Of a DNA stretch of 64,000 bases, positions 23,107 through 27,233 are shown piece after piece. The stretch comes from Terriglobia bacterium (GTDB lineage Bacteria > Acidobacteriota > UBA6911): the NCBI GenBank assembly GCA_020072565.1, contig JAIQGI010000029.1, positions 1 to 64,000 of the forward strand, read 5' to 3'. Position 1 is the first letter of the stretch; each line of letters begins with the position of its first letter. Under the pieces are notes generated by a model. That model did no database searches. It was not told the origin of the DNA and saw only the letters and a list, made by a program, of their open reading frames with translations. The position numbers and the translations under genes are program-made.

Positions 23107-24025
23107 ATTTCTTGGGGGGGGAGAAGGTCACATCGAATTGGACTTTGGACTCGACCACTTCGCCGTTTCTGGTGGCGGGCAGGAAGACCCAGCTGGTCTT
23201 GACCGCTTCCATGGCGCGCTCATCCAGGCCATGCCCGAGACCCTTGACCACAGCCAGATCCTGAAGGGTTCCGTCCCTGGTGATCGTCGCTGAGAGCTTC
23301 ACCTTGCCGTAGGTAGCGGTGCGGCGTGCATCCTCAGTCGGCGACACTTCGGGGGTTTCGAGATAGCGCGGCGGGTTCACGCCATCGGGCTGGAGCTGGC
23401 TCTGCCAATCCCGATCCCACTCCGAGGTCCCGTCCGTCGTTCGGACCCGGCCGAGTTCAGTCAAACCGGCGTTTCGCAAGGCCGCCTCGCCATTGGTGTT
23501 TCTCAGATCCAGATCTTCGATCTTGGATTGCGCCTGGTCGAACTGGGCTTTATCGAGCCCCTGGAGGTAGAAGCGTTTTGAGCCGATGCGAACGCTCAAT
23601 TCCTCGATGTGGTCCTGCTCGTGGAAGGCACCTATCACATTGAGTCCCTTGAAGGATGCGTTATTCAGCAGAATGGATGCGCTATAGCGGTAGACATCTC
23701 CACGGGTTCCTTTGGTCTGCTGGTCGAATACCTGTCCGATATAAAACTGCCCCGAGCCGCCCTTGTAAATGAACTCGCTCGCCTGCACGACGATCACGTA
23801 TTCAGACAGATTGACGAAGTTGAGTATGAATTGGTGCGTGCCGGAGACTTCTGCCGTAATAATGTACTGCGTCCCGACATAGGCAAAGCGCCTGGGAGAT
23901 TCCTGCGCACGCCCTGCAGCGCCTGCTGCGATCAAGAGCATGGCCAGCGCTATCACCAGCGGCCGGCTGCTGCGCGTCGGCGAAAAGATGGAGTTGAACC
24001 GAGGACATGTCACTTCGATCTTCAT
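23105..24025 (-). CDS. Exported protein with a TonB C-terminal domain
   Basis: 306 residues, ATG 24025. A hydrophobic stretch (about 23-40) ending in a cleavage-like GRAQ suggests export. The middle (45-200) has no motif I recognise. The C-terminal 75 residues (KLSATITRDGTLQDLAVVKG to a final VQFDVTF strand) match the TonB-type domain that contacts outer-membrane receptors. The usual proline-rich spacer is missing, so it is not a classical TonB. Its ATG overlaps the M20 peptidase stop by 4 bases, implying translational coupling. Confidence 0.78.
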   Translation of the reverse strand: MKIEVTCPRFNSIFSPTRSSRPLVIALAMLLIAAGAAGRAQESPRRFAYVGTQYIITAEVSGTHQFILNFVNLSEYVIVVQASEFIYKGGSGQFYIGQVFDQQTKGTRGDVYRYSASILLNNASFKGLNVIGAFHEQDHIEELSVRIGSKRFYLQGLDKAQFDQAQSKIEDLDLRNTNGEAALRNAGLTELGRVRTTDGTSEWDRDWQSQLQPDGVNPPRYLETPEVSPTEDARRTATYGKVKLSATITRDGTLQDLAVVKGLGHGLDERAMEAVKTSWVFLPATRNGEVVESKVQFDVTFSPPKK

Positions 24026-25170
24026 TTCAGTAACTCCTTAGCCAGAATGCTGAGGAGAGATGCGCGTCGCGGCACATCAGAGATCAGGATATGCTCGTGG
24101 GCGGCATGTGCACCTCCGCCTTCGACTCCCAGACCGTCGAGTGTGGGAATTCCAAGCGCAGCAGTAAACGAACCGTCGCTCCCGCCCCCAGTTCCTCCCT
24201 CACCCAATTGCATGCCTATGGTTGCAGCGAGCGCTTTTGCCTCCTGATATAGCCCGGCTACCGCCGGAGTGCGTTCGAAAGGAGGCCGGTTGATCCCTCC
24301 TTCTATTTCGAAGCTGCATCTTGCGTCCCGGGGTCGCAGCCTGCGGATGCGCCTTTCCAGGCGCCGGCCGTCCGCGAGAGTCGAAAACCGGAAATCCACT
24401 TCCGCCTCCGCGCGGCTCGGCACGACATTCACTGCCGAGCCGCCTCGGATCGTTCCGACGCTCAATGTGATACCGCGCTCATAGTCAGTCATCCTCTGAA
24501 TCTTGAGCACCTGACGACTAAGTTCGAGAATGGCGCTGGCGCCCGTCTGCGGGTCCAATCCGGCGTGCGCTGCGATACCGGCCACGCGCAAGCGAAAAGT
24601 TCCCACACCTTTGCGAAACGTCTTGGCTCTTCCTCCCGGGAGCGAGGGTTCCAGGACCAGGACCGCGCGGGAAGCCCTGGCAATCGGTTCGAAGAGCGGC
24701 AAGCCCGCGGCCGAGCCGATCTCCTCATCCGGCGTGAAGAAGAAAATCACGTCGCGTTCCGGGCGCAGCCGCTGTTCGTAGAATGCGCGGCATACGAGGA
24801 GGCACAGCAGCAGGCTGCACTTCATGTCATAAATGCCGGGGCCATAAGCCTTGCCGTCTTTCATGGCAAACGGCCGTTCAAAGACGGTGCCGGGGGGCCA
24901 CACTGTGTCCAGATGACCCAGAAACAGCAACGGCCGGCCCGAGCCTTCACCCCGCCAGACGGCTTTGAGGGCGTTGCCGCTGGCAGCCTGAGGGATAACC
25001 TCCGCCTCTGCCCCGCGGTTCTCAAACTCCCGCGCAAGAAACTGCGCCAACCGATCGACGCCGCCTTTGTCCAGAGAATAGGACTCCATTTCGACCAGGC
25101 ACTTGAGCAGACTGAGAGCCTCATCGAGATTCGCGTCGAAATAACTCACCAAGTTCATGGGCGCACTCAT
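24022..25170 (-). CDS. M20-family metallopeptidase (carboxypeptidase G2-like)
   Basis: 382 residues from ATG 25170; ATG 25158 is an alternative. LLFLGHLDTVWPPGT has the first zinc histidine and the catalytic aspartate; GPGIYDMKC supplies the bridging aspartate and DEEIGS the catalytic glutamate pair. GGTGGGSDGSF is near the C-terminal ligands. A dimerisation domain occupies about 190-290. The layout fits CPG2-type aminoacyl hydrolases; the substrate is unknown. It begins 5 bases after dapF and overlaps the TonB-C gene. Confidence 0.9.
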   Translation of the reverse strand: MSAPMNLVSYFDANLDEALSLLKCLVEMESYSLDKGGVDRLAQFLAREFENRGAEAEVIPQAASGNALKAVWRGEGSGRPLLFLGHLDTVWPPGTVFERPFAMKDGKAYGPGIYDMKCSLLLCLLVCRAFYEQRLRPERDVIFFFTPDEEIGSAAGLPLFEPIARASRAVLVLEPSLPGGRAKTFRKGVGTFRLRVAGIAAHAGLDPQTGASAILELSRQVLKIQRMTDYERGITLSVGTIRGGSAVNVVPSRAEAEVDFRFSTLADGRRLERRIRRLRPRDARCSFEIEGGINRPPFERTPAVAGLYQEAKALAATIGMQLGEGGTGGGSDGSFTAALGIPTLDGLGVEGGGAHAAHEHILISDVPRRASLLSILAKELLK

Positions 25171-25175
25171 GGATG

Positions 25176-26030
25176 TTATGATTCCGGAAAATCCACGCTG
25201 CACAGGTATTCGGCCGGTCCGGTGAGGAAAAGGTCACCAGGTGGCTGCCAATGAACCTCCAAACTCCCCAATTCGACCTCGACGATAACCGGGCTTTCCG
25301 CCAAACAGTTGAGAATGGCGGCAACCACGGCTGCCGAGCTTCCGGTCCCTGAGGCCAGCGTCGGTCCGACACCGCGCTCCCAGAAGCGCACGCGAATGCG
25401 ATGACGATCCAGTACCTGAACGAATTCGACGTTGGTGCGGTTCGGAAAGCAGCTGTGCCGCTCGAGCACAGGCCCCAGTATCTCCATCGGGGCCCGGCTC
25501 ACGTCCGGCCAGAAGGTCGAACAGTGCGGGTTCCCCATGGAACTGATCGTAACCCTCACAACCTCGGATCCCACGGCAAGAGGAAAGTCGATCAGTGCCT
25601 CCGAGCCGGACCCGAGACAGACAGGAATTCGGGCGGGCTCGGTTACAGGCCGCCCCAGTGAGCTTTTGAAGGTGTAGATCCGGTCTTTCCGATTCTCGAG
25701 CGTGAAAGTCTTTACTCCCGCAACCGTGCGGATCCCCAGGGTCCGGGCATGAGTCTCTCCCGAGTGAATCAGATACGCGGCCAGGCAGCGTGTGCCATTG
25801 CCGGACATTTCGGCGCGACTGCCATCGGCGTTGTAGATCAACACCGAAACGTCCGCCTCTGCATCCCCCACAGTTGGCTGATAGAAGAGCACCCCGTCGG
25901 CGCCAACGCCGGTATGGCGCCGGCACACCCTGCGGGCGAACTCGCCGAAATATGGGCCGGCTGTTCCGACTTCGCCCCCGCGGGCAACCAGAAAATCGTT
26001 TCCAAGCCCGTGCAGCTTCGCCAACTTCAT
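25176..26030 (-). CDS. dapF: Diaminopimelate epimerase homologue with both catalytic cysteines replaced by serine
   Basis: 284 residues from ATG 26030 (KLAKLHGLGNDFLV is the normal DapF start). Both halves of the DapF fold are present: NADGSRAEMSGNGTRC in the first and ERGVGPTLASGTGSSAAV in the second. In known DapF these read EMCGNG and LACGTG, with the two cysteines acting as the acid/base pair that racemises LL- to meso-DAP. Here they are Ser76 (TCC) and Ser227 (TCA). The protein is otherwise full length and well kept, so it is not decaying. It may be an unusual epimerase or a different isomerase. It sits in an operon with PGI/PMI and M20. Confidence 0.88.
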   Translation of the reverse strand: MKLAKLHGLGNDFLVARGGEVGTAGPYFGEFARRVCRRHTGVGADGVLFYQPTVGDAEADVSVLIYNADGSRAEMSGNGTRCLAAYLIHSGETHARTLGIRTVAGVKTFTLENRKDRIYTFKSSLGRPVTEPARIPVCLGSGSEALIDFPLAVGSEVVRVTISSMGNPHCSTFWPDVSRAPMEILGPVLERHSCFPNRTNVEFVQVLDRHRIRVRFWERGVGPTLASGTGSSAAVVAAILNCLAESPVIVEVELGSLEVHWQPPGDLFLTGPAEYLCSVDFPES

Positions 26031-26174: not shown

Positions 26175-27233
26175 TTATGCACCCAGCTTCTGCTTGAGCG
26201 TTTCGATGACCGGCACCGGCGTGGGATCCACGGCGTTAAGGAAAGCCAGATAAAGGCTGACAAAATCTCCAAGGCAGATCGCAGAAAATATCCTGGCGAG
26301 GAGAGACTCACCCTCGCTCCATACTTCGTGCACAATGGCGGTTTTGCGCGCCAGGATCTCTCTGGTGAGATCAAACCGGCGCTGCACCTGGGGATGGTCG
26401 CCTCGATCCCTGAGGAGAACTACTGCAATCTGTTGCAGGAGTTGTGCGGGAAATTCCCATCCCACAAGTTCGTTGTGGTTCATCTCGGGCATGAGATGGT
26501 GGAACGCCAGATTCTTGGCGTTCTCCTCGATCTGGCCGCGCCAGCGCACGGCCACCGGATTCAGAACTGCACTGGAAGCGTAGACCGCAATGAGCCTGCC
26601 ATGCAGTGAACGTGCCATCCTCTTGGCTTGATTCCTGGTCTCATCCGTTTCCGGACCGTATCGTGCCACCAACTGGTTCAACAGCTCCACGGTCTCACGT
26701 AAGGGTTCCGTCATGTCCGGTATCAGCCCCAGCATCGACAGAGCTCCAAGCAGCATGACTGCCGAATATCCGAGGGCGGCCCGCGGCGGCAAGCCTGCCG
26801 GCAGCTGGATTACCGGATGCCCGTGGCGGCGCGCCTCGGAGGCCAGCTTTCCACCTGAAGTCAGGCAAATGATGAATGCGCCCGCGGTTCGCGCCTGCTC
26901 GTAGGCACTGAGGGTCTCCTCTGTGTTCCCGGAATAGCTGCTTGCAAACACAAGCGTGGAAGCATCAATGAATCCGGGCAAACGGTAGTCGCGGCAAACG
27001 AACAGAGGAATGCTCAGGAAGGCGGAGGTCACCGCCCCGATCACGTCACCGCCGATGGCTGAGCCGCCCATGCCGCCGATCACCACGCACGTGATGCGCG
27101 GCGGCGGCGGCAGGGAAAGGGTCCGCGCCATCTGTGCGGCACCTTCCACCTGGGCGGGGAAAGACTGCAGCAGGTGCCTCATCGACTTTGGATCGATGGC
27201 AGCCATACGATCCATCTGATCAAGGACGGGCAA
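26175..27233 (-). CDS. Bifunctional phosphoglucose/phosphomannose isomerase
   Basis: 352 residues. Start TTG 27233 has GAGGTAGGAT upstream; ATG 27215 is the alternative. Two SIS domains: VVIGGMGGSAIGGDVIGA begins the first, and ASSYSGNTEETLSAYEQA is the phosphosugar-binding loop. PEMNHNELVGWEF is the signature near the active-site histidine and glutamate of the archaeal-type PGI/PMI family. It interconverts fructose-6-phosphate with glucose- and mannose-6-phosphate. It follows the regulator gene by only 4 bases. Confidence 0.9.
   Translation of the reverse strand: MPVLDQMDRMAAIDPKSMRHLLQSFPAQVEGAAQMARTLSLPPPPRITCVVIGGMGGSAIGGDVIGAVTSAFLSIPLFVCRDYRLPGFIDASTLVFASSYSGNTEETLSAYEQARTAGAFIICLTSGGKLASEARRHGHPVIQLPAGLPPRAALGYSAVMLLGALSMLGLIPDMTEPLRETVELLNQLVARYGPETDETRNQAKRMARSLHGRLIAVYASSAVLNPVAVRWRGQIEENAKNLAFHHLMPEMNHNELVGWEFPAQLLQQIAVVLLRDRGDHPQVQRRFDLTREILARKTAIVHEVWSEGESLLARIFSAICLGDFVSLYLAFLNAVDPTPVPVIETLKQKLGA

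Follow-up and report, generated by a model that had tools for sequence, protein, structure and literature searches.

The open reading frame at positions 25176–26030 on the minus strand of the window (the whole stretch of 64,000 nucleotides analysed here, from a Terriglobia bacterium) encodes a homologue of diaminopimelate (DAP) epimerase, DapF, in which both catalytic cysteines are replaced by serine. The product of 284 amino acids is probably the working DAP epimerase of the cell and represents a lineage-wide variant of DapF, in which Ser76 and Ser227 would take over the role of the cysteine pair. It is a catalytic variant on the scale of the phylum, Acidobacteriota, and is unreported in the open literature that we searched.

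Identification of the dapF gene

The frame runs from an ATG at position 26030 to a stop at position 25176. Its product matched the DapF profile TIGR00652 over residues 1–278, that is, over its full length, with 227.2 bits (cut-off 114.65), and the Pfam profile PF01678 with 161 bits; both curated profiles place it in the DapF family. The TIGR00652 score and the end-to-end alignment with solved DapF structures confirmed an earlier note, made from the sequence alone, which had named the gene a DapF homologue. For PhzF, no profile matched, and the structural match was at only 13–14% identity. Membership among the proline racemases and hydroxyproline epimerases was likewise not found, as only PF01678 and the DapF profiles matched, and the structural match of the model to proline racemase-type proteins was remote (13–19% identity). 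On the basis of homology and context, the frame is classified as a DapF orthologue and not as a two-cysteine epimerase.

Catalytic positions and predicted structure

In the alignment with solved DapF chains, Ser76 (codon TCC, positions 25803–25805, minus strand, motif EMSGNGTRC) and Ser227 (codon TCA, positions 25350–25352, minus strand, motif LASGTGSSA) fall exactly on the first and second catalytic cysteines, C73 and C217 of H. influenzae, and the window protein lacks the catalytic cysteine pair of DapF. The two replacements had been read in the same way in the earlier note, with which codons and alignment agree, and the TCA codon is indeed two changes away from either cysteine codon. A misalignment of the serine positions was ruled out by the sequence alignments and the predicted structure: no cysteine lies one or two residues from Ser76 or Ser227. 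The cysteines C82 and C170 of the window protein are also conserved at the same sites in ordinary DapFs.

The AlphaFold model, built on 42 aligned sequences from the window and the loci, has the two-domain DapF fold with a pLDDT of 94.5. Its best match in the PDB was 9mro, the closed, inhibitor-bound DapF of Anabaena (TM 0.92, rmsd 1.9), with 3ejx at TM 0.90, and the model thus agrees with the claim that the remaining fold is conserved. The H. influenzae mutants C73S and C217S (PDB 2q9h and 2q9j) were also among the top structural matches. In the model, Ser76 stands directly before helix 77–89 and Ser227 directly before helix 228–240, which corresponds to the helix N-terminal site where the cysteines of DapF are placed (PMC12039745).

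Conservation of the serine pair

The conservation analysis compared 82 aligned rows of the main Ser/Ser group with 68 Cys/Cys rows taken from the matches listed in a scan of named genomes. Serine was present in 82 of the 82 main-group rows at position 76 and equally at position 227, while position 76 was Cys in all Cys/Cys rows; among the matches listed, these two positions were the only ones that discriminated completely between the groups. Neither Ala, Thr nor Gly occurred at position 76 or 227 in the 82 rows of the main group. The DAP-binding residues N11, N67, N167, N200, E218 and R219, all present in the window protein, were 100% conserved in the 82 Ser/Ser and 68 Cys/Cys rows (matches listed).

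When a gained residue was defined as one present in at least 70% of the Ser/Ser group and in less than 50% of the Cys/Cys group, the two serines were the only ionisable or polar residues that the Ser/Ser group had gained, and a gained substitute base was ruled out by this comparison. H169, invariant in the Cys/Cys sets, is relaxed to His, Gln or Asn in the Ser/Ser group (65% His, 25% Gln), and C36 is conserved in 99% of the Ser/Ser rows versus 59% of the Cys/Cys rows. Compared with ordinary DapF, the differences of the Ser/Ser group concentrate at positions 85 (K/R to A), 216 (V/T to F/I), 252 (L to T/A) and 169 (H to H/Q/N).

The main Ser/Ser group is diverse, its members sharing about 40–62% identity with the window protein. 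At the first site the serine codons TCC, TCG, TCT, TCA and AGC all occur, and the set at the second site is identical. As the codons are mixed (all four TCN and AGC), it is the residue and not the codon that is under selection, and the invariance of the pair in so diverse a group indicates purifying selection on it. The same invariance throughout a phylum-wide group, with TCN and AGC codons at both sites, excludes chance, sequencing error, a pseudogene and fresh decay, and it supports the judgement of the earlier note that error or fresh decay was unlikely.

Distribution of the catalytic pairs

A DapF homologue was found in 278 of 297 genomes of the phylum, and a DapF match, weak matches included, in 248 of the 257 genomes that were at least 90% complete. 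The acidobacterial DapFs were aligned, as had been proposed, and both sites were read in the main alignment for 120 sampled genomes, a sample that is not random because weak homologues were included deliberately: 72 were Ser/Ser, 44 Cys/Cys and 4 Cys/Ser, while the Ser/Cys order occurred in 0 of the 120. The natural Cys76/Ser227 proteins (L120, L138, L190 and L195) come from four acidobacterial families other than that of the window, and they are intermediates between the Cys/Cys and Ser/Ser types. Within the window's own family (f1), the genomes read from genus g2 were Cys/Cys and those from g1, g3 and g4 were Ser/Ser. Two more divergent sequences of family f35, L254 (635–1567) and L255 (795–1682), are also Ser/Ser by alignment, with the motifs SGNGMAG and SSTGS and without R81/C82.

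The scan of named genomes gave 80 loci among the matches listed. Among these matches, the Ser/Ser loci whose title names a taxon belonged only to Acidobacteria, Blastocatellia, Aminicenantes, Vicinamibacteria or Terriglobia; two further Ser/Ser loci, with no taxon in the title, were the bins HR08 and HR10. The remaining loci among these matches, from Bacillota, Cyanobacteriota, Myxococcota, Planctomycetota, archaea and further groups, were all Cys/Cys, and no Ser/Ser pair was present in the non-acidobacterial relatives read from the matches listed. The literature search covered open-access sources, subscription journals being outside its scope, and found nothing on a natural Ser/Ser DapF or on acidobacterial wall chemistry. 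Many Ser/Ser homologues already described, with normal activity, would have spoken against the earlier note; many do exist, but none was found described in the open-access literature.

Copy number and the DAP pathway

The window is part of contig C29 of a 7.46-Mb genome that is 98% complete and has a single DapF. A second, Cys-type DapF was searched for in this genome, as the earlier note had advised, and was ruled out, none being found. Exactly one DapF was present in 72 of 79 matched genomes, and the other seven belong to one genus with an extra divergent homologue. These seven (f31/g41: G065, G205, G252, G076, G106, G220 and G260) are the only two-homologue genomes in the 79-genome panel, and each holds one DapF above the cut-off, Ser/Ser in the two that were read, and one divergent homologue below it.

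In the window's genome, dapB, dapA and dapD are clustered at C8:172466–174829; dapB (135.6 bits) and dapA (334.8 bits) both score over the cut-off, and DapD is 64% identical to a protein above the NF008808 cut-off. LysA reaches 493 bits (cut-off 298), murE carries the motif TSDNPRSEDP and is of the DNPR type, and ddh, encoding meso-DAP dehydrogenase, is absent. A DapL route had no match over cut-off, the route present being that of dapD. The succinylase route with DapD leads to LL-DAP, LysA decarboxylates meso-DAP, and MurE of the DNPR type normally adds meso-DAP, although this type of MurE alone leaves LL-DAP walls possible. The genome thus makes LL-DAP, uses meso-DAP and has no bypass, and an epimerase from LL- to meso-DAP is needed because dapB-dapA-dapD, lysA and a DNPR-type murE are present and ddh is absent. 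A bypass through meso-DAP dehydrogenase was also rejected more widely, as ddh was over cut-off in only 1 of 80 genomes, a Cys/Cys one. Altogether 28 residue-verified Ser/Ser genomes, the window's included, have dapD, a lysA that passes its cut-off and a single DapF, with no ddh reaching its cut-off.

About a third of the tested Ser/Ser genomes are without recognisable dapB/dapD/lysA. Most Cys/Cys and Cys/Ser genomes of the panel likewise lack recognisable dapD, dapB or lysA, so the missing genes do not set the Ser/Ser genomes apart. Genomes of high completeness with no convincing dapB, dapD or lysA include G005, G021, G060, G296, G219 and G043, among others; their DapF is of the Ser/Ser group, that of G043 by group placement only, and murE, read in G005, G021, G060 and G219, is of the DNPR type in all four. 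The genome G245 (100% complete) has lysA (441 bits) but neither a detectable DapF nor ddh. Its assembly may lack the gene, or a different epimerase may be present; with lysA but no detectable DapF in this genome, the phylum may have a further route to meso-DAP.

Gene neighbourhood

The gene lies between a phosphoglucose/phosphomannose isomerase (PGI/PMI) gene and an M20 peptidase gene, as the earlier note had stated, and profiles confirmed both neighbours. Upstream is the bifunctional isomerase (26175–27233, minus strand; NF006426, 414 bits versus 295). The M20-family metallopeptidase frame directly downstream (24022–25203, minus strand, 393 amino acids; PF01546/PF07687) has, as listed, a putative GTG start and a 28-base overlap with the 3' end of dapF. 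Its best NCBIfam scores were glutamate-carboxypeptidase-like, all under cut-off. The possibility that it is DapE was rejected, as it fell short of every DapE cut-off and was outscored by other M20 genes of the genome.

An M20 gene also adjoins dapF in 10 further genera of the class to which the window belongs, on the same strand in all but one, and adjacency or overlap of the two, as at 24022–26030 in the window, was seen across most families of the class. The PGI/PMI gene is often near this pair, and in several families of the class it is linked to dapF. The statement that the gene is not with other dap genes also held, and dapF is apart from them in most of the Ser/Ser genomes examined; among the Ser/Ser loci inspected, no dap gene was found repeatedly next to dapF. 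The neighbour of dapF is lysA in the Cys/Cys genome G196. Apparent DapF fusions of 625–790 amino acids were read as frame extensions, their upstream parts being without a Pfam match.

Phylogeny and origins of the Ser/Ser type

A quick tree (LG+G4) placed 75 Ser/Ser rows in one group, beside the Cys/Cys DapFs from other phyla (support 86), and the Ser/Ser sequences L184 and L189, together with the Cys/Ser pairs L120/L138 and L190/L195, fell within a separate acidobacterial Cys/Cys group. When a mixture model was used and both catalytic columns were masked, 72 of the 75 Ser/Ser rows stayed together (support 96); L162, L167 and L170 left the main group, their placement being unstable between models, and the pair L184/L189 was still apart from it. 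L184 and L189 share V167 and R85 with the acidobacterial Cys/Cys group, while the main Ser/Ser group has N167 and A85. A second origin of the Ser/Ser type in L184 and L189 is therefore likely, favoured but not proven, as constraining all Ser/Ser rows to one clade costs 55 log-likelihood units but gives an AU p of 0.08. In the acidobacterial Cys/Cys group (L113–L142, L183–L202), the DAP-binding Asn of GNPH at position 167 is mostly Val (GVPH) and the cysteines are kept, and judging from this residue the substrate specificity of these proteins may differ.

Discussion

Beyond the observed sequence, conservation, single copy, pathway context and predicted fold, we infer that the Ser/Ser DapF epimerises DAP and, more tentatively, that the acid–base work is done by the serines themselves. 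We lean towards a cofactor-free epimerisation at the alpha-carbon by a natural Ser/Ser dyad, which would be the only DAP epimerase across much of the phylum and would have arisen at least twice from Cys/Cys enzymes, with Cys/Ser forms surviving. Ser76 and Ser227, at the N-termini of two opposed helices, would flank both faces of the alpha-carbon of DAP. Once the site is closed and desolvated, one serine, deprotonated to an alkoxide-like state with the help of the helix dipole and backbone amides, would take the alpha-proton, and the other would give a proton from the opposite face, converting LL-DAP to meso-DAP for LysA and MurE. Read most simply, the protein would be a conventional two-base epimerase that uses a serine hydroxyl and alkoxide where DapF otherwise has thiol and thiolate; if it is an epimerase, a low intrinsic turnover could suffice given high expression.

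As a base, an alkoxide comes at a far higher cost than a thiolate, and no compensating ionisable residue was gained. The strongest objection to catalysis by the serines comes from engineered mutants, as single Cys-to-Ser mutants of PddB are nearly dead, with less than 0.1% of the activity left, and the same is reported for those of Mt-DapF (PMC8225329); the active site must therefore have been retuned in this lineage. Candidates for such retuning are positions 85, 216 and 252, which carry the largest group differences after 76 and 227.

The earlier note had proposed an epimerase with altered chemistry or a different isomerase. Altered chemistry agrees with the replacement of both thiols and the lack of a gained base; a different isomerase fits poorly with the invariant DAP residues, the sole DapF and the need of the pathway. 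It is less likely than DAP epimerisation by the serine pair because the LL-to-meso step is needed and the protein is the sole homologue, in the window's genome and in 27 further Ser/Ser genomes alike. It is also unlikely that the protein binds DAP or a close analogue and carries out other chemistry, for example a one-base elimination or dehydration, with meso-DAP supplied by an unrelated enzyme such as a PLP racemase. In proline racemase-family enzymes, dehydration accompanies the loss of a catalytic Cys to another residue (PMC4113996; PMC8142540), and the Ser/Ser genomes without recognisable dapB/dapD/lysA, the lysA of G245 without DapF and the second homologue that coexists with the main DapF in the seven f31/g41 genomes would all be in keeping with other chemistry. 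Against this, the substrate residues match DAP epimerase exactly, the gene is almost always single-copy and spread like an essential one (the 248 of 257 genomes given above, weak matches included), and missing dap genes are equally common beside Cys/Cys DapF.

That the protein epimerises DAP with structural serines, while the base is ordered water, substrate groups or some other residue, appears improbable. Serine is an unlikely base for an alpha-carbon, and the near-inactivity of isolated Cys-to-Ser mutants (PMC8225329) would suit such a role; the occurrence of serine only, and never Ala, Thr or Gly, at both sites of the main group argues against it, as do the lack of a new conserved ionisable residue and the relaxation of H169. 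It is very improbable that the protein is catalytically inactive and is retained as a scaffold with a non-enzymatic function, since the substrate pocket is fully conserved and genomes that need a DapF have no other, although both catalytic residues are altered and a non-enzymatic interaction of DapF with RppH is known from E. coli (PMC4227774).

The window protein resembles the DapFs of TIGR00652 with solved structures (H. influenzae, E. coli, Anabaena and Arabidopsis) in length, two-domain fold, substrate residues, helix N-terminal catalytic positions and pathway context, and differs in the change of both Cys to Ser. In the H. influenzae mutants C73S and C217S, Ser stands at one matching position each and the fold is unchanged, but these are single engineered mutants, and Ser substitution in DapF serves to hinder catalysis for crystallisation (PMC12039745). 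Precedents in the proline racemase family are a natural Ser/Cys 4-hydroxyproline 2-epimerase (4HypE) and a Ser/Thr trans-3-hydroxyproline dehydratase with a catalytic Ser (PMC4113996); these are active enzymes of related fold with a natural Ser for the first catalytic Cys, but they belong to another family with another substrate, and Ser/Ser epimerisation is not among the activities given there. A further precedent is the Thr/Cys pair of an Asp/Glu racemase (PMC8142540). O-ureidoserine racemase, PddB (a Dab racemase) and HisR/CntK are DapF-fold racemases with changed substrates; PddB and HisR are reported to use Cys/Cys (PMC8225329, PMC11602996), whereas the window protein has kept the substrate residues and changed the catalysts.

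DapF is an enzyme of both cell wall and lysine synthesis, and many members of the soil-dominated Acidobacteriota carry the Ser/Ser version as their only copy. It is a model for the removal of a very weakly acidic alpha-proton by a weak thiolate base, and an antibiotic target attacked with cysteine-directed inhibitors. If a natural Ser/Ser protein is the sole epimerase, the thiol pair would not be essential, and a textbook reaction would run with different chemistry. Natural Ser/Ser, Cys/Ser and Cys/Cys enzymes would then allow a direct test of what determines base strength, and a dominant soil phylum would be predicted to be insensitive to thiol-directed DapF inhibitors.
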